Source of the DNA: Tachypleus tridentatus
Lineage: Eukaryota; Arthropoda; Merostomata; Xiphosura; Limulidae
Reading direction: 5' to 3'
Assembly (NCBI RefSeq): GCF_004210375.1
Contig: NC_134837.1
Location: 15,259,798 to 15,323,797 of the forward strand
DNA: 64,000 nucleotides
Position numbers and translations under genes: made by a program. Shown here piece by piece: positions 4,035-63,855 of this stretch. The notes beneath the pieces are model-generated. The model did no database searches, was not told the origin of the DNA, and worked only from the letters and a program-made list of their open reading frames with translations. The first letter of the stretch is position 1, and the number at the start of each line of letters is the position of its first letter.

Positions 4035-4671
4035 CAGTTTACAAACTTGGCCCTACATGTGAACACTACAGTAGTGTTAATGTTTTTGTGTCAGTTTACA
4101 AACTTGGCACTGTGTGTGTGAACACTAAAGAGTGCCAACTGTTAATTGTCAGTTTACAAACTTGGCACTGTGTGTGTGAACACTAAAGAGTGCCAACTGT
4201 TAATTGCAGTAGTGTTAATGTTTTGTGTCAGTTTACAAACTTGGCACTGTGTGTGTGAACACTAAAGAGTGCCAACTGTTAATTGCCAGTTTACAAACTT
4301 GGCACTGTGTGTGTGAACACTAAAGAGTGCCAACTGTTAATTGCCAGTTTTCAAACTTGGCACTGTGTGTGTGAACACTAAAGAGTGCCAACTGTTAATT
4401 GCCAGTTTACAAACTTGGCACTGTGTGTGTGAACACTAAAGAGTGCCAACTGTTAATTGCCAGTTTTCAAACTTGGCACTGTGTGTGTGAACACTAAAGA
4501 GTGCCAACTGTTAATTGCCAGTTTACAAACTTGGCCCTACATGTGAACACTACAGTAGTGTTAATGTTTTTGTGTCAGTTTACAAACTTGGCACTGTGTG
4601 TGTGAACACTAAAGAGTGCCAACTGTTAATTGCCAGTTTTCAAACTTAGCACTGTGTGTGTTTGAAATGCT
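4035..4671 (+). repeat. 58-bp minisatellite with internal 8-bp hairpin
   Basis: About ten copies of a 58-base unit starting CAGTTTACAAACTTGG. Each unit contains TTGGCACT and, about 20 bases later, its reverse complement AGTGCCAA, so every unit can form an 8-bp hairpin. Two variant units (near 4048 and 4533) replace the GTGTGTGTG part with CCCTACATGTG and add a CAGTAGTGTTAATGTTT segment, giving a second level of periodicity. Confidence 0.9.
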
Positions 4672-4823: not shown

Positions 4824-5084
4824 GTAAGTTATAAATATGAAACAGATCTCTGTTGTATATTACTCATTTTAATTCTTCCTTTATACATCAGAAACTTGTT
4901 TTCATATCTGTTCAGATCACAATTACAAATTATAAAAAATACACAAATAGTCCACTCATGTTGTGTGAAATCACTGGATCAGTTACAACATTATTGCTGT
5001 TGTAGGACACCACACATATAGTTAGCTCAGCAATGTAACTGGTAATTAAAATACAGTATACCACATTTTAAATCCTTAACAAAG

Positions 5085-5279: not shown

Positions 5280-6600
5280 TTTAATTAATAAAACAACAGT
5301 CTAGTGTATGCTGTGCATTAACAATTGCAGCATTACATAATGTTGAAAATACTTCTTAATAAATACAATATAAAAATTAATTACCTCAACTTTTCTAATG
5401 TTACTGTAACAAACTAAGTGTGTATATATGTATTTATGTATGTGACCGAAACAATAATTATAATGTAGTGCAACCTATCAGATGTCACCAAAAACAAAAA
5501 TATATTAAAAGTATTTTCAGTTTGGGTATTCTAGGTTCAGACAATTAGAAACATAACTACAGTACATGCAACAACCATTTCTGTATCATAGAACATCATT
5601 TTAACTACTCTCCTAATAATAACACAACTTTCCTTAGGACTGTACTTGAAGGTTTGATTATATCTTTATTAATGCTATTTACAAATATAGTTTTTAAAAA
5701 AGTAACTGTTGTTTTTTCAATAAACGTTACCACATTTAATAGATAAAAACATTACAGTTTGTATTAGTACAATCCGAACACTTCTTCCTAGCACTATTTG
5801 CCAGAAAATAAAACATTTTTTTTTAATGTTCACTTTTTCTAAATTTCTTTGCTATAACACTGTCTTAAAACAGCCGAGTGTCTGCTATCACTAACTAGTA
5901 AGCTTCCCACAGGTTGTTGAGTATCATGAATGTTACTAATTGTTTAACTTTTGTTTCTCATTTCAAGGTTTTAATTGGTTAATGTGCAGCTCCTACTGTC
6001 CTGTCAAAGTACATGACATGTGTTACTCATGAGATGCCTGTAAGCATACCTTGTGATAAAAATTTTATTATTATTTTTACCTAATCTACCTTATCTAACC
6101 TAGAACATTTCTACTTTTTACATTTTAGTTAATTTTAAAATGAAAATCAAGGAACACATGAAAACAAGAAATAAGGTACTTAGCTGGGTCATCTTCTTTT
6201 TGCTGTCACCTGTCGATGATACTTAATCCCACTTTTTAATACTAATTGTACTACTGCAATAAATAACGTTTTATTTAATTAAATAGTGTTCCAAAGAACA
6301 AATAATAATATGCAAAAATCAGAATATATTCCAAAGCTATCACAATTATTCTGGCTTTCGAACTGTGTAACAAAAACCGTTAGAAATTCACCTTAACTCA
6401 GGGTATCTATCCTGTGGAAATAAAGCTTAAACTGGAAGCAAAAGTGACAATTATGTCTCTAGAAAACAATATATCATTTGATAGATGTAAACGTTAGCTT
6501 TCTGTTGGTTATAAATAATATAATATTAAATGTCAGAGAGAAGTACTTGTATTTGTGAAAGACAGAATGTGGAAGGTGGGCATGGCATAAGGGCTTTTAT
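5280..6600. other. AT-rich non-coding stretch
   Basis: I see no gene, SINE or tandem array here; short A/T runs only. Confidence 0.45.
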
Positions 6601-19564: not shown

Positions 19565-21000
19565 TGACTGATTAATCATTACAGTTTGGTTACACCAGCT
19601 TTACCTTTATGAATGGTAATTATGTGGGTGTAAAGAATATTACTTATTATTAATTACATGATATTTCTTGACCATTTTAAGTGGTCCAGCACTGTTAATT
19701 AGCAAGATTACAAGTTAATATATCTCAATATCAGTACAATCTTATCCTACCTGACTTCTGGATAGCAGTATTATTTTCTGTTCTACACCCAATGGAACAC
19801 TTCTTGTTTGCATATTTTTGCATGATCCAATCACGACTGAAATTTAATCAACCAATCTGTTACATTTTGAAATAAGATTAACAACTGCTTGGTCATCTTG
19901 AAAAACATTGAATATGACAACTATAGTTAGATAGGCTTAATATTTTTTTAACTTTACAGTTATTCATACAGTTACATATACATACACACATTCCTACACT
20001 GATACAATATAGGATTGTACATATTTCATCTTATAAGGTATTTTTAACATAAAAATTCATATGTTACATTTATTAACTTTCAGGTGGTGTTAAGAAACAT
20101 AAATATTACTCTAAGTATCTTAATTACCTAAACATCTGACCAATTTTTTTATGTCTTTTAGATCAGATAAGTAACATCTAAATGTCATAACAATCCACAA
20201 TAGAAAGTTAACAACATGCATGTTAAACTAATTCATACATTTTAAGGGCAGGATCTTTTGTATCTTATAAATCAGACACACAAAATACCTGACATCTATC
20301 TGTGACAAATATATATAAATTGTGTACAAGTTTTCTTCTGAAACTTTTAAAGTGAAGTTACTACTAATTATCTTATAGAAGAGATTTTCCACTATTAAGA
20401 CACTGATACACATAATGAGCTGTTATAGAAATTTTTAAAAACTAAGCAGTTTGAACATTAAAACAAGTTAATTTAGATTCCTTGTTATTTAAATAAATAT
20501 TACTTATATTAAGATATTTAGCAGCTTTATCAAAATTTTCTTGAAAAGTGTTTACAGTTTCTTTTACAAAAGATAAAATTATCCTTATATAAATAAATAT
20601 AAGCAATCTATGGTTATTTACCTCCTCTTGAGCTTTTTAACTTTTCTGGTACTTGATCTGATTTAAATGTCATAATTAATAATTTCAATAAAACATAAAC
20701 TAATGTACTACACTGTTTAACTTCCATAATTTGTACATTATTATCACTTGAAAACGTTTTATTACTCAGTGTATTAATAATACTTTGAGCTTCACAGACA
20801 GTTAAAAGTGGAGAATAGTTTGATTACAAATATTTGTGTTACATTTAAATAATTTTTTGTGCTGACCTTGGATATTTACTTTTTAGTTACTAAAATATTT
20901 CTGCATACAATACAGTAAAATTACTTACTAACTGCAATAAATATATTTTTTAGACATGCTATTAATAATCACATAATTTATTCTTATTAACACAAGCAGA
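19565..21000. other. AT-rich non-coding stretch
   Basis: No supported feature. Confidence 0.45.
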
Positions 21001-28563: not shown

Positions 28564-28830
28564 ATGAACAATAAACAAACGATAATAAATTCCAAGATAC
28601 AACAAACTACAAAACCTTACACTGCTTCATACAATATATTCTCGACATCAGCGACAAATAAAATTATAACAAAACACAACATTCCAGTAAACACTAAATT
28701 TATTCAAAAATCAGGTACAAAACCAAAATCCATGCAATGTAAAAATTACACTGACAAATACAACACCAACATTATTTATAAAATACAATGTAACAACTGC
28801 CACGACTTCTATATTAGAGAAAAAAGCATT
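28564..28830 (+). pseudogene. Penelope-like element ORF fragment (linker and start of GIY-YIG domain)
   Basis: The frame contains KYNTNIIYKIQCNNCHDFYI, which matches the start of the GIY-YIG endonuclease of Penelope-like retroelements (consensus VxYKIxCxxCxxxYIGET). In a live element this domain nicks target DNA and follows a reverse transcriptase. Upstream residues (TKPYTASYNIFSTSATNKII...) fit the linker before the domain. The reverse transcriptase is absent upstream, and the GIY-YIG domain is cut right after YIRE, where the reading runs into terminal-repeat sequence (from about 28831), giving an artificial 138-codon frame to 28980. This is a 5'-truncated, rearranged dead copy. Confidence 0.62.
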
Positions 28831-29090
28831 TTTATATGCAAAAACGGCTCGTTTTGGGTTGAGAAAATATTTTACATAGAAGAGCGAACAACGTTTCGAC
28901 CTTCTTCGTTCATCGTCAGGTTCACAAAGAAAGAGGTAACTGACCGGAAGCTGACCACATGTTTGAAAGGGGTTGTGTAACTGAGTGTCGGAATGTAGAG
29001 GGCGGTGTTAGATGTTTGAATATATAATTTTATATATTTTTGCATATAAATTTCTCAACAAGTGGGTTTCTCGACATCACTGAGAGAAAA
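28831..29090 (-). mobile_element. Penelope-like terminal repeat
   Basis: Contains the phrases ATGCAAAAACGGCTCG, TTTGGGTTGAGAAAA, CATAGAAGAGCGAACAACG and AACAAGTGGGTTTCTCG that recur at 53.9, 57.1 and 60.2 kb. It holds a hammerhead-type core on the - strand, although the adjacent ORF fragment is on the + strand, which indicates rearrangement. Confidence 0.65.
28892..28919 (-). ncRNA. Hammerhead-ribozyme-type core in PLE terminus
   Basis: On the - strand: CTGACGA, a short arm TGAAC, GAAGAA loop, GGTC, then GAAACG. CUGANGA and GAAA are the two invariant strands of the hammerhead core, and Penelope-like elements are known to carry hammerheads in their terminal repeats. Helix II is weakened by one base change relative to the copies at 53.97 and 57.17 kb (AAC against GGTC). 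The cleavage-site strand would be near the GTTGTTC that follows. Activity is unproven. Confidence 0.5.
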
Positions 29091-33399: not shown

Positions 33400-33525
33400 G
33401 TTATCTATTTATAAGGTTATGTCTGTACTGACTTGTTCAAATGTATGCTCATGAGTCTGCAAACTCTTTTAACCTGAAGATAACTAAAGAAGGTCCAAAC
33501 GTTTATTTTAATTAAAGTTTTAATA
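33400..33525 (+). mobile_element. Penelope-like terminal piece with damaged hammerhead core
   Basis: AGTCTGCAAACTCTTTTAAC is followed by CTGAAGA (33474-33480), an imperfect arm, and GGTCCAAACG (33492-33501). The first core strand is intact; the second has GAAA changed to CAAA, so a ribozyme here should be dead. Confidence 0.5.
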
Positions 33526-52598: not shown

Positions 52599-53495
52599 AT
52601 ACACGTATATTGTACTAGCTGTAGACATTTGTTTCATTATAAATACAGTAAAGTTTTGTCATATTTAAAAACTCTGCTGATCAAAGCGATGTTCTTCCAT
52701 GAATAATAATAATAAAAAAAGAAAACAGATGTTTTGTGAAAATAAAGACCTTGAATGAACACAAAACAAACCTATTACCGCATTTAAGTTTACATATATT
52801 GATGTGATATTCAGTACTTTGATTTATAATAGTAACGTTGTGAGATTCACAATAAACAGCAGAATTATGGGTTGTTAAACAAAGCAGTAGAAGGAAACAG
52901 AAGAGAAGTAGTAACGAATTTCATAAAGACCTGACTGACTTTTCTCAAAGTTCTGTTTCAACACCGACTTACAGATATTTAAACAGGAGAAAGAGTTCTT
53001 ACGTAAGATAAGAGAAAAAATGAAGATGTCTTATACTCAACACTAGGAACAAACGTCACTGGTGCTACACCCTGCAGAATGTTTCCTTTAAGCTGAGTGG
53101 CCACACAAACACCAATCAAGTTTTGCAAACTTAATTATTCTAGTCACGAAATATTCTTACTACAGATGAGTAGTCTCAACATGTTGATGGCTTTAATGAC
53201 TGTGATAGTTGATAGGCTTAAAGCGCAAATAGCTACCTAGTAGCATTGCAGGGCGTTCTAATGATCCAACAGGATTGATGGTATAAAAGTATCACCACCC
53301 CCAAGAATAAAGCTAGTAGCACATTTCTTTGATATTGGCGCAAATGAAAAAATCATTATTTACACGGATTGAAGAAATTAAAAGAAACATTTTGCTGCAG
53401 TTCTAAGTTTATATTTAGACACTTCCAGAAAAATTAAAATAAACCCCAAACCTATACTCACTTGTACAAGTGTTTGTGCTACTTCTTAACATAAA

Positions 53496-53570
53496 GGCTC
53501 GGTTCCCCTCGGTGGGCTGAGCAGATAGCTCGATGTGGCTTTGCTATAAGAAAAACACCCAAACACACAT
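53496..53570 (+). mobile_element. SINE group B, 5'-truncated, 10-bp TSD
   Basis: TTAACATAAA flanks at 53486-53495 and 53571-53580. Only CGGTTCCCCTCGGTGGGC and the 3' part to ATAAGAAAAACACC remain. 5' truncation with TSD is typical of incomplete reverse transcription. Confidence 0.92.
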
Positions 53571-53883
53571 TTAACATAAATACTACCTAGCTTGGGAACC
53601 AATAATGCAGAATAGGAAACAGTTGAAGACTACAAAAGCATTATATTTTTGAAAAGTATTAAATTACTTTTTCCACACCTTGCTGAACTTCTCTCATGAT
53701 ATAAAATATGTATCAATGGCAAAATGCTAGATATTCAGAAATAAATTCAGTTTGTAAGAAAGCCACACAGTGAGGTCCTTCTGAGCTGTTATTTTCAAGT
53801 TCAGTTATAAAAATCGTGGCTGAAAAGTTTTCACTATTATTAAATATACTCATGTGACACTTGTTTCGAATACTAAACACAAT

Positions 53884-54032
53884 AATCAGTGATGACGAAA
53901 AAACCCACTTGTAGAGAAAAATATATACGTAGAAACGGCTCGTTTGGGTTGAAAAAATTTTGTGAACCTGACGATGACCGAAAAAGGTCGAAACGTTGTT
54001 CGCTTCTCTACATAAAAATTTTCTCAACCCAA
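53884..54032 (+). mobile_element. Penelope-like terminal repeat, solo, with 12-bp TSD
   Basis: ACTAA(A/G)CACAAT flanks at 53872-53883 and 54033-54044, and copy 2 of the duplication has a single unfilled copy of this site near 61442. Internal inverted repeats GTTTGGGTTGAAAAAATTTT and AAAATTTTCTCAACCCAAAC surround the hammerhead-type core. The - strand frame 53713-54027 runs through it by chance. Confidence 0.72.
53968..53995 (+). ncRNA. Hammerhead-ribozyme-type core
   Basis: CTGACGA, arm TGACC, loop GAAAAA, arm GGTC, then GAAACG. The two invariant strands CUGANGA and GAAA are intact and helix II has four good pairs (GACC with GGTC), with an extra U before it, which is not canonical. Helix III would be very short, as in other PLE hammerheads. 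Confidence 0.58.
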
Positions 54033-54984
54033 ACTAAGCACAATTCTAGTGCATTTGTATAGAGGTTGAAAATGTTATACGAAACTTGCGCTTCTCTATA
54101 CCATTACAGTCTTGCTGATATGATAGTAATAACCCTGAGTCACTCGGCAACATAAGTATTTATTGCAGAATGCTGACGTAAGACTGTCTTGTCCAAAGCA
54201 CAATAACCATCTTAGAAACTTTCCCGTAAGCCATTTGTCATGCCATAATGACAGCTTCCAAGTGCCTATTTCATCAGTTTAATTGCACAGAAATTCATGG
54301 ATGCCGCACCCAATAACTTACTGACATCTCATTGTTTGTAATAGCATGAATATCGATTTCAGGCTCCAGTTGATTGCAGTTTGTATCAGTTTAAGGAGAG
54401 TTATAGCTTATCGCTTACATTGGTGAATCCATCCCACGTGATCTTTATGCTCCTGTACTGTAAATCTTTATACGTATTTATAATAGCATACGTATGTTAA
54501 TCATGTTAAAAAAAGCCTTAAATACTGATGATAAGACATCATATGTAAATTATCAACATTATTTCTTCAAATACAGATATTACATCGCACGTAGATTACT
54601 CACGTTACAACTTAAACACAGATATGATAACACATGGGGATTAGTAACGTAAAATATTCAGGGACAGATAGATATAAAAAGAATCGTATGTTAATTACGT
54701 GACATTTTCAAAGTTCCTCCCATTGGCTAATCAGTCTCATTGCTTACGGTACTAATACTCGGGTAGCTTTGTTCGTATTAACAATTAAATATTTTCAAAG
54801 CCACATATTAAAACATGAGCACATTAATCATGCCACATCTTCAAAGACAGATAGACAACAGCATTGTATTTATCAAGTTCCATCCTGAAGTGGGTTATAC
54901 ACGTAAAGACTAATGATGTTAGAAAGAAAGGAGAAAATAGAAACAGGTTCTACAAAAGGCAAAAAATAAATATGTTTAACGTTT

Positions 54985-55105
54985 ATGATAAAGCTATCAA
55001 CAGCTGCCCTTAATTCGGACCACTGACCAGAGAGAAGGTAGCCAGCCAACAATGTTACGGTTAAGAAGTGACTGTTACACTTATAATGCACTAATAGCTT
55101 ATGTA
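54985..55105 (-). mobile_element. SINE group D fragment
   Basis: Reversed core: GCTATCAACAGCTGCCCTTA, GACCAGAGAGAAGGTAGCC, TTACACTTATAATGCAC. The - strand 72-codon frame is part of it. Confidence 0.55.
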
Positions 55106-55109
55106 CGAG

Positions 55110-55655
55110 GAATATTTTGTATTGTACAGATTTATACCAAGACTGCTAGCTCAAATTCCAAGCTCTACCATAAAACCAATCTACACCACACTATTTAGTT
55201 TAGGTATGATTCTGTTTATTATCAAAGGATAGCTAATCCTAAGTTCCCTTTCTTCACTGGCTCTTCTAACGATTTTCAACTGCAAATAACATACACTGGA
55301 AGAACAATGAAAGACTCAGTAAAGAGTATATCTCCTCCACTCGCCGTTCATCATATCTGCCTCACACAAAATAAGAAATTTTACCCTCGTGTCTGTCTTT
55401 ATTACTGGAACAACAACAGACAATATATTATATTATAGATCATTTTTCACTGAGTTATAAGGCAACAATAGTGTGAAAAATCAGTTCCCATGTTTTTTTT
55501 TTTTTGGTTTTAATAACCTTAAACTTTCACCAGCTAAGCATTTCTAATTTGGGTCATTCTAGAAGTTTATACCAAATTTTGTCCAAACCTATCGAGTCAT
55601 GTTTCATAAATCTTAGTGACAAACACAAAAAGCAGAAACATAACCCTCGAAATAA
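55110..55655. other. Non-coding stretch
   Basis: No gene; an 11-base T run near 55494. Confidence 0.4.
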
Positions 55656-55661
55656 ACAAAT

Positions 55662-55795
55662 AGGTGATAAATAGTGGAATTAACTGTCACATTTATAACC
55701 CCCAACAATAAAAGTGTGTCGCGTGTTCAGTGCAACACTGAACGTGAGAATTTCGATTCACAATCTGCTGCACTACCCATCAGGCCATTTTTAGC
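55662..55795 (-). mobile_element. SINE group A, old fragment
   Basis: AATAGTGGAATTAACTGTCA, TTTATAACCCCC, GAATTTCGATTCACAATC, CACTACCCATCAGGCC follow the reversed layout. Confidence 0.55.
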
Positions 55796-55799
55796 CTCA

Positions 55800-56940
55800 T
55801 GCAGAAAATATAAATAACATAATTGTTAGACAAATAATAAAAACAGTACAGATGAGATTAGTTCATCAATGTAATATATAGTTGGTAATAACCTTTCTCA
55901 CTGATCCTGGCTTTACTATTTGTTTTGATAAATTAGTAATAACATTGTACATAACAACTAAGGTATACTAAATATGACTTTTAACGTATCTCTCTAAAGT
56001 TCTGAAAGACACTGATATCCATTTAAGGTATCTATATTTATTGTTTTTTCGTGGCACTTCGAAAAATAAACTAGCTTCTATGATTATAACTTATGTTTAA
56101 CTAGATTCATCATATGTTGAAAAAATATATAACAACATCGTAACTAACAGTTAATATTTAAATTAATATAATATAATATATATTTAATATATGTTTAATA
56201 TAAAAGTGTTCTTGTTAGTGTATAAGATAGTTGTAGAACGGAAAGTTCTTAAATATCTCAACAAAAAACGACTGATCCATGTACAATTTATCTTCTTTCA
56301 AGATAGTGCGTTACTAACGGGTTTAGTGTCTTTATCATCTAACCAAATATAAATTCATAAATCTGATGACAACCCCACTTCACACTTGGACTAATAAACT
56401 TGTAAGTGAATAGTATTGAATGAGACTGTTGATAGGTAGGTATTTGTTTACACAGGCTGATTACTAAGCTTAGTTGAGACTTGTATCAAACCACGTTTTG
56501 TCGTTAGCTACCGAACACCTGGAGATGCCTTTTAGAACAACAATATAAACCTGGCGAACAACAATGACATAAACTAATACACAGTGTTCGCTATGTTTAT
56601 AAGTATTCTATATTCAAAGAAGAAGTGAACATACGAGATGACCACAACTAGTTTTTTAGTTAACAATAAAATATTCATGATACACTTATTTGTAGGAACA
56701 TAATATTTTAATTTTCTATTTATTCGTGCTCTTACATATAACATTATATATCGTGCCAGTAGTTGAAACTATCGTTACTTGGTGAAACTGCATAGTTACA
56801 GAATTGAGGAAAACAAAGACAATTTTACGTTTCATAAATATTTCATTTATTACGACCATGGTTTTATCAGGTACCTGGAATATGAATACAATGTTTGAAT
56901 GTATTGGTCTTTATTTACATAACGTCTACCGTTTCCTTCT
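55800..56940. other. AT-rich non-coding stretch
   Basis: TATAT-rich near 56160-56205. No gene recognised. Confidence 0.45.
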
Positions 56941-56944
56941 CACA

Positions 56945-57063
56945 CTTTCCAGTGGCTCAACGGTAAATCTGAAGGCTAAATCCTGGTTTCGATACCCGTG
57001 GTGAATGCAGTACAAATAGCTCATTGTGTAGTTTTTTTTGCTTGGCAACAAACAAACAAAAAC
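56945..57063 (+). mobile_element. SINE group C
   Basis: CCAGTGGCTCAACGGTAAAT, TGGTTTCGATACCCGTGG, GCTCATTGTGTAG and (AAAC) tail. The open frame 56804-57004 runs into it. Confidence 0.85.
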
Positions 57064-57069
57064 AAATAT

Positions 57070-57202
57070 AATCAGTGATGACGAGAAACCCACTTGTTGA
57101 GAAATTTATATGCAAAAACGGCTCGCTTGGGCTGAGAAAACACTTTTACATAGAAGAGCGAACAACGTTTCGACCTTCTTCGGTCATCGTCAGGTTCACA
57201 AA
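57070..57202 (-). mobile_element. Penelope-like terminal repeat
   Basis: GTGATGACGAGAAACCCACT, TGCAAAAACGGCTCGCTTGG, GAAGAGCGAACAACGTTTCG. Directly follows the tail of a group C SINE. Shares its outer end with the copy at 53884. Confidence 0.7.
57166..57193 (-). ncRNA. Hammerhead-ribozyme-type core
   Basis: On the - strand: CTGACGA, TGACC, GAAGAA, GGTC, GAAACG. Best-preserved copy in the window, identical to the 53968 core except in the loop (GAAGAA versus GAAAAA). Confidence 0.6.
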
Positions 57203-57737
57203 CTTGGAATTTAATGGGGCCAGAACAATGGTGGCTTTAATTGAAAAATGCGACTGGTTGAAAATAAAGATATCTTTAATGTTACTTTACTATTTACATT
57301 TCATCTATATGTCGGGTTATTAATAGAATTCAAGGTTCAAAGAAGTAACTTTTTTCTTAGGCCATAATAATGAAAGAAATTACCAACGACACCACGTGTA
57401 GATTTGAGGACGAAAATACATTTTTAATACAACACAAAAGAATATAGAAATTCATGAAATAAAGTTTTCGGTGTTCTATATTAAATTAAAAAAACTAACA
57501 AAGTGTCACATTTTGAGTAAAAACTGTCTTTAAAGCCCAACCAAATTATCAGTACTCTCATCTTTAGATTGAATTTTATTGTTTTAAAAGAAAATCTTTC
57601 CACCTGCCTCACCCCTCCTTAGGCTTTGAAACTGCAAATATATTCTGGCATCATTAACAATATAGAAAACACGTTTTTGAAATGGGTATTCCAAGTTTTC
57701 CAACATTTCAACAACGCTTTAAAATGAAGGACTGTTT

Positions 57738-57893
57738 CCATAATATGGTGAGTTGGTTAGGGCGCTTGACTCGTAATCTGAGGGTCGTGGGTTCGAATCA
57801 AACATTCTGGTCCTTTCAGCGACAGGGGCGTTATGATGTGACTACAATCCAATCCCATGGTTTTGCGTGAAATTCAAAACAAACAAACAAACA
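57738..57893 (+). mobile_element. SINE group A, internally deleted
   Basis: Head (GAGTTGGTTAGGGCGC, GACTCGTAATCTGAGGGTCG, GGTTCGAATC), short core (GGGGCGTTATGATGTGAC), then directly the tail TTTTGCGTGAAATTC with (AAAC). About 100 bases of core are lost. Confidence 0.9.
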
Positions 57894-58045
57894 AACCATA
57901 ACATAAATAGCTAGTACCACAGGTATCCTGCTTGTTATCATGTTAAGTATTACAATATATCCACAGTGGACAAGATATCTGCTATTTCACGTAAAGTAGA
58001 TATTTTTATAAAATGTTTATTTGTTGTATGGTCTAAGATTGAAAT

Positions 58046-63454: not shown

Positions 63455-63855
63455 TAATAACGTGTTTACCTGAAGATGACCTAAGAAGGTCGATTTGTTT
63501 TGTTTTGAATTTCGTGCAAAGCTACTTGAGGGCTATCTGAGCTAGTTGTCCGTAATTTAGCAGTGTAAGACTAGAGGGAAGGCAGCTAGTCATCACTACT
63601 CACCGCCAACTCTTGGGCTACTCTTTTGCCAACGAATAGTGGGACTAACTGTCACATTATAACGCCACCACCGCTGAAATGGCATGTTTGGTGTGACGGG
63701 GATTCGGACCCGCGACCCTCAGATTATGAGTCGAGTACCTTAACACCTGGCCATGCCGGGTCTAAGAAGGTGGAAACATTGTTCTCTGCTTTATTAGTAA
63801 AAGTGTAGATAAAAAAGATACGTTTTTACTTTAAGTGGGTTTCCCGTCATCACGA
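63455..63855 (+). mobile_element. Penelope-like terminus split by a SINE
   Basis: CTGAAGA (63470-63476), TGACCTAAGAAGGTCGA, then the SINE 63494-63761, then CTAAGAAGGTGGAAACATTG and, near 63834, AGTGGGTTTCCCGTCATCAC, the common outer end. Without the SINE the hammerhead strands CTGAAGA and GAAAC would be in their usual spacing. Confidence 0.7.
63494..63761 (-). mobile_element. SINE group A, full length, 13-bp TSD, inside a PLE terminus
   Basis: Flanked by CTAAGAAGGTCGA (63481-63493) and CTAAGAAGGTGGA (63762-63774). Reverse copy from TTTGTTTTGTTTTGAATTTC through GGGATTCGGACCCGCGACCC to CACCTGGCCATGCCGGG. Confidence 0.94.

Follow-up and report, generated by a model that had tools for sequence, protein, structure and literature searches.

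Candidate minimal hammerhead ribozymes in the termini of Penelope-like elements of Tachypleus tridentatus

A stretch of 64,000 nucleotides from the horseshoe crab Tachypleus tridentatus (contig NC_134837.1, positions 15,259,798 to 15,323,797 of the forward strand; hereafter the window, meaning the whole stretch analysed) contains three copies of a short motif which very probably represent minimal type I hammerhead ribozymes, located in the pseudo-long terminal repeats (pLTRs) of a Penelope-like element (PLE) with a reverse transcriptase (RT) and a GIY-YIG endonuclease. The motif is of a known kind, the published minimal hammerhead of PLEs. Its sequence, helices I and II, covariation, strand and link to RT and endonuclease frames are all observed in the data described below.

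The 36-base motif is found at 28884-28919 (-), 53968-54003 (+) and 57158-57193 (-), with 2 of 36 positions varying among the copies. A sequence-only reading of the window had noticed three hammerhead-type cores, at 28892, 53968 and 57166, and their positions proved exact: the pattern CTGAYGATGAMCGAARAAGGTCGAAACGTTGTTCGC matches three times in the window, for a shuffle expectation of 0.00, and both core strands, CUGANGA and GAAA, surround helix II in every copy. The same reading saw no convincing helix I, but one exists. GUGAAC before CUGA and GUUCGC after GAAACGUU form six pairs, including one G.U, which directly flank the core in three of three copies. In helix II, the 53968 and 57166 copies read GACC/GGUC and the 28892 copy GAAC/GGUC, with one A.G mismatch. 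The extra U which had been pointed out between the first core strand and helix II, that is, after the conserved A9, is present in all three. The motif has no helix III and carries a palindromic ACGU in its place. The window copies are partial element fragments (Table 1).

The proposed placement in Penelope-like termini was likewise borne out, by coding frames on the strand of the ribozyme, by a helix I that pairs and covaries and by a model from other families that retrieves the window copies. Using the RT frame beside one copy as query, at least 133 matches were obtained in the genome among 35,153 first-look candidates. In L051 (L numbers designate fetched genomic copies or loci), the frames adjoining the ribozyme match RVT_1 (PF00078, E 7e-12) and GIY-YIG (PF01541, E 8.9e-5), and the endonuclease (2001-1606) is followed on the same strand by the ribozyme (1480-1454). 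Similarly, the endonuclease match of L039 (4348-4728) precedes a ribozyme on the same strand (4884-4910), which puts the ribozyme of these two loci downstream of the endonuclease match by about 125-155 nt. In L043, the ribozyme (4429-4455) lies upstream of the first frames (from 4930), and a frame on the same strand (5829-6278) matches RVT_1. The 3' end of L051 is repeated, inverted, at its 5' side over 502 bp with 99.6% identity, ribozyme included, an indication that the copy is young. L040 contains two directly repeated units (1,945 bp, 98.8% identity), each bearing a ribozyme, the two ribozymes being 3.7 kb apart; since neither RT nor endonuclease was matched at this locus, it falls short of proving tandem elements. 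Penelope-like hallmarks are present, namely RT and GIY-YIG frames at a terminus on the ribozyme strand and inverted repeated termini.

Helix I and its covariation across the genome

Coagulin (PF02035), a family not known outside horseshoe crabs, matches the 2.17-Gb assembly containing the window with E down to 1.5e-25 and none of 14 control genomes, as expected of a horseshoe crab host. The core pattern is matched exactly at 20,220 places in this assembly, and its reversal at 25. These comprise 18,879 matches (4 reversed) with N14 spacing, i.e., 14 bases between GA and CGAAACGTY, and 1,341 (21 reversed) with N8-13 spacing. Flanks were fetched at 120 places, 100 among the 1,341 N8-13 matches and 20, hand-picked for diversity, from 100 of the 18,879 N14 matches; removal of 8 repeat rows left 112 rows. 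As CUGANGA and CGAAACGUY were prescribed by the listing patterns, core invariance is not a result of this sample; likewise, with C prescribed before GAAA, helix II of the paired rows necessarily opens with a G-C pair. GUY is dominant at the cleavage triplet, with 125 GUA (control 13) and 118 GUG (control 29).

Helix I covaries between families, also in rows unselected for pairing. Where the extra base is other than T (52 of 112 rows), the first six positions are 68.6% paired in the expected hammerhead register, compared with 49.3% after shuffling (0 of 1000 shuffles reach the observed value), and eight other registers yield 30% to 48%, the most unusual of them (+2) being reached by 20 of 1000 shuffles. 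The figures are 60.2% versus 46.4% (0/1000) for the 31 of these 52 rows with longer spacing, and 70.4% versus 56.2% (0/1000) for all 112 rows. Class labels follow our own rules and helix I counts use labels derived from core letters only; since a label A based on flank letters makes its count of 30/30 circular, that count was set aside. Runs of at least four helix I pairs occur in 26 of 30 A-like rows (control 37.6%), 10 of 21 B-like rows (1.2%) and 9 of 31 other rows (11.1%), the control consisting of 3' strands taken from other labels. The helix itself reads GUGAAC/GUUCGC in class A, AACACUC/GAGUGUU and relatives in class B, UUGC/GCAA in class C and UUGACC/GGUUAA in class E.

An alignment, A1, was built from nine rows of classes B-E, hand-chosen among 25 with helix I and helix II pairing of at least 3 and hence biased by selection. 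Paired cells amount to 90.3% (27-42% in slid versions), and the covariation score is 0.712 (0.172 shuffled, at most 0.171 slid). Changes on both sides affect 6 of 8 pairs overall, i.e., 5 of 6 in helix I and one of the two counted in helix II. The covariance model derived from A1, which includes no A or A2 row, returned the three window copies as its top matches (30.6, 27.8 and 27.4 bits; E-values in Table 1). Deprived of its pairs, it found the same copies at 14.3, 13.4 and 13.1 bits (E 0.0018-0.0042); sequence alone is thus enough to find them, and the pairs add about 14-16 bits. The sequence-only reading had proposed to look for a covariance-model match and for covarying pairs across genomic copies. 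Such pairs were found, with helix I covarying and the paired sequences of helix II differing by family. As for models, the one from other families ranks the three copies first, whereas those of Rfam gave nothing near the cut-off; the Rfam hammerhead models examined all contain helix III, which the window motif lacks.

Several results weigh against the identification. The window motif came near the cut-off in no Rfam scan, the scans covering the whole window at gathering cut-offs and, permissively, 53000-58000, 20 loci, 28800-29000 and 53900-54060 (the 57158-57199 copy fell within the whole-window and 53000-58000 scans only). The best Rfam hammerhead match to a PLE-type sequence, Hammerhead_HH9 (53950-54016, 13.9 bits, E 0.66, cut-off 52), ranks seventh by score of 11 Rfam matches in 53900-54060, below six microRNA families, and Hammerhead_1 (RF00163) had no match among the 8 PLE-type loci tried, its gathering cut-off not being reached. 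None of 28 A2-like rows has four or more helix I pairs, and no helix I covariation was detected in these rows (53.0% paired, 54.1% shuffled). When all 112 rows are taken together, no shuffle reaches the value of register +4 either (46.0% versus 40.5%), its excess being smaller than that of register 0. Position 17 lends no support to the NUH rule, GUG being as frequent as GUA. Support for the tandem copies that cis dimers would need is poor: among 100 of the 18,879 matches listed, 17 pairs of neighbours are no more than 5 kb apart, 15 of them "- then +", one "+ -" and one "+ +", and inverted ends outnumber tandem ones in this listed sample. For PAc, the Poseidon element of Anolis carolinensis, no RNA-seq reads are reported to start or end at the predicted site (PMC11167929). 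Lastly, for two of the three copies in the window and for L132 of class C, the minimum free energy (MFE) fold is one long hairpin in which core GACG is paired with CGUU, an inactive shape, and the MFE fold of the 28884..28925 copy does not give the hammerhead structure.

This extended fold would suit a plain terminal hairpin, serving RT binding or priming, with no ribozyme and with hammerhead letters that are incidental, and the 53968 copy does sit inside a 20-nt inverted repeat. Such a hairpin requires position 7 to pair with G, whereas, of the 58 rows in which helix II pairs, 28 have A and 2 have G at this position. These 30 rows argue against the long hairpin as the conserved shape, and the MFE fold of the class B copy L129 consists directly of helices I and II. 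We thus regard a plain hairpin as unlikely; the long hairpin could instead be an off state of the ribozyme.

The base between A9 and helix II

In the sampled rows, the extra base is systematic. A helix II of at least three pairs forms in 58 of 112 rows when one base is skipped after A9 and in 1 of 112 when none is; a spare base on the 3' side accounts for 1 and two skipped bases for 4 of 112. The sole row without the extra base, L093, resembles a class A copy from which it has been lost. Among the 58 rows, the base is T in 36, A in 18 and C in 4, and helix II is, depending on the family, GACC/GGTC, GCT/AGC, GCC/GGC, GTC/GAC, GGGC/GCCC, GAGC/GCTC, GAAA/TTTC or others. The rows with this base depart from the general hammerhead consensus, in which helix II starts straight after A9. 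Viral contigs, taken as a rough background with a spacing of 8-16 versus 8-14 in the genome sample, gave at least 124 matches in at least 120 stretches, 8 with an extra-base and 18 with a canonical helix II.

The sequence-only reading wavered between a diverged and a decayed variant. A once-active ribozyme which decayed family-wide, the extra base marking the loss of function, would account for the partial window copies, the helix II mismatch in one of them, the lost GAAA of the 33474 copy and the 53 of 112 rows that form neither a canonical nor a one-extra-base helix II of three pairs. Removal of the extra base from a viroid hammerhead was also found to raise cleavage (PMC11014351). However, the base recurs as U, A or C across differing families that keep helix II, which is not plain decay, and the L051 duplication described above, ribozyme included, points to a young copy. 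In addition, the hammerheads of chrysanthemum chlorotic mottle viroid (CChMVd), one of which has an unpaired A after A9, are described as self-cleaving (PMC3705267). Partial as the window copies are, we consider a family-wide loss of function very improbable.

An extra base after A9 is not claimed here as new to print. The plus-strand hammerhead of CChMVd shares one unpaired base after the conserved A9; it differs in being a viroid ribozyme and in having A at this place, where U, A or C is found here (PMC3705267). A tentative idea, which we hold to be rather unlikely, is that Penelope-type hammerheads make up a separate structural subclass, with the loss of helix III and an unpaired base that is obligatory after A9 as its defining features, distinct from the canonical type I motifs of the same genome that lack this base, in which case the extra base may tune them to dimer-only or protein-assisted action.

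Related loci, broken copies and matches elsewhere

That the motif belongs to a retrozyme (non-autonomous, with canonical type I hammerheads) rather than to a PLE is extremely improbable, for although the genome also has type I motifs that lack this base, have GUGUC following GAAAC and form a longer helix I (some of L174-L187), 4 of 9 of which Rfam weakly recognised when tried, these form a different family, and the window motif lacks helix III while the fetched copies adjoin RT and GIY-YIG frames.

The 14 loci L174-L187, hand-picked, are mostly retrozyme-like type I hammerheads lacking the extra base, with helix II GCUC/GAGC, GAAACGUGUC and a long helix I with a GGAU/AUCC part. Four of them, of 1.3-1.4 kb, share a common stretch of only about 35-70 bp, and no second copy was seen in these. 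L188, L189 and L190 hold further CTGATGA...CGAAACTG motifs, in which helix II is canonical and a distant helix I is possible. Two repeated sequences were also noted: CTGATGATTCCTTTACTAGCGAAAC, which recurs at 74- or 148-bp steps (G000:C1:1668828-1669148), shows no helix II and is probably a satellite, and CTGATGAGTTGCAACTTTTCACACAAGGCGAAACGT, which is arranged head-to-tail with a period of about 36 bp (G000:C1:5856332-5856400 and L048:3862-3966).

Matches outside the genome were rejected as further family members. Only 1 of the viral matches (at least 124) has a helix I of four or more pairs, and they look like chance. Bacterial and archaeal contigs, searched with a pattern fixing G after the extra position, gave 38 matches in 37 stretches, which also look like chance (extra-base helix II in 4, canonical in 3, helix I of at least four pairs in 1). 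Literature listings, considered by title, contained no title on horseshoe crab hammerhead or Penelope ribozymes.

Two further copies in the window had been described as damaged and interrupted, respectively, and both are. The first, at 33474, has CAAA for GAAA. The second, at 63470, is broken after 63493 by a repeat of ~270 bp and resumes at 63763, the insert being bounded by a 12-base target duplication with one mismatch, TAAGAAGGT(C/G)GA. This repeat (63489-63757) has 22 matches in the window, whole or part, one copy being that which splits the ribozyme. One of its ends, reversed, looks by eye like a tRNA, and ARAGORN found no tRNA in it; from its sequence, it is probably a tRNA-derived short interspersed element (SINE).

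Table 1. Predicted hammerhead motifs and associated features in the window
Feature	Position	Strand	Details
Minimal hammerhead, intact	53962..54003	+	other-family covariance model 30.6 bits, E 1.7e-5
Helix I of this copy	53962-53967 / 53998-54003	+	GUGAAC / GUUCGC
Core of this copy	53968-53974	+	CUGACGA; extra U at 53975
Helix II of this copy	53976-53979 / 53986-53989	+	GACC / GGUC, loop GAAAAA
3' core segment of this copy	53990-53997	+	GAAACGUU; predicted cleavage after 53997
Minimal hammerhead, one A.G mismatch in helix II	28884..28925	-	predicted cleavage between 28890 and 28889; E 9.1e-5
Minimal hammerhead, helices intact	57158..57199	-	predicted cleavage between 57164 and 57163; E 1.1e-4
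Fold-back terminus around ribozyme	53942..54034	.	arms 53942-53961 / 54015-54034, 20 nt, 95% complementary
Penelope-like GIY-YIG endonuclease frame, fragment	28660..28826	+	adjoins inverted terminus carrying ribozyme
Decayed hammerhead, sister class A2, GAAA to CAAA	33474..33503	+	covariance match at 33476, E 0.5
A2-class hammerhead, 5' part, cut by repeat insertion	63470..63493	+	
Interrupted A2-class hammerhead, 3' part	63763..63783	+	

Predicted cleavage and the Penelope-like family

The fold predicted for these minimal hammerheads would comprise, in order, helix I, CUGANGA, one bulged base, a helix II of 3-5 pairs, GAAAC, GUY, the cleavage site and the second strand of helix I. The four bases ACGU are all that separates GAAA from the cleavage site, so that helix III cannot close within a monomer. 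Where two ribozymes are present, on one transcript or on separate molecules, their palindromic ACGU ends would base-pair and each would cut the other after GUU, and this mutual cleavage would trim the element RNA. Minimal PLE hammerheads reportedly may cleave as dimers, to judge from the title of a 2017 study by Lunse et al. Dimer formation, cleavage and role are drawn here by analogy with the literature, on which basis dimeric or protein-assisted cleavage after GUU appears most likely. PLE ribozymes are described in reviews as minimal, devoid of helix III and possibly cleaving as dimers (PMC6155905, PMC7761336), and their in vivo activity and role are called a mystery in one of these (PMC7761336). 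For PAc, compared by description and not letter by letter, cleavage is reported to have occurred only with its protein present, and ribozyme mutants to have had no effect on insertion in vitro (PMC11167929); in the three window copies, unlike PAc, an AUG meets a stop after 13 codons.

With the published minimal PLE hammerheads, known here through reviews, the window motifs share the type I order, a location at the termini of elements with RT and GIY-YIG endonuclease and the absence of helix III, and they differ, as far as these reviews go, by the systematic base between A9 and helix II. With Rfam Hammerhead_1, they share the core and the helix order, whereas the RF00163 model has a helix III.

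These results settle a doubtful call: a ribozyme family whose core is matched about 20,000 times in a single genome scores far below the Rfam cut-offs, but its helices and their covariation are clear. The base that recurs after A9 provides a simple way to ask whether dimeric or protein-assisted cleavage is what Penelope-type ribozymes are tuned for.
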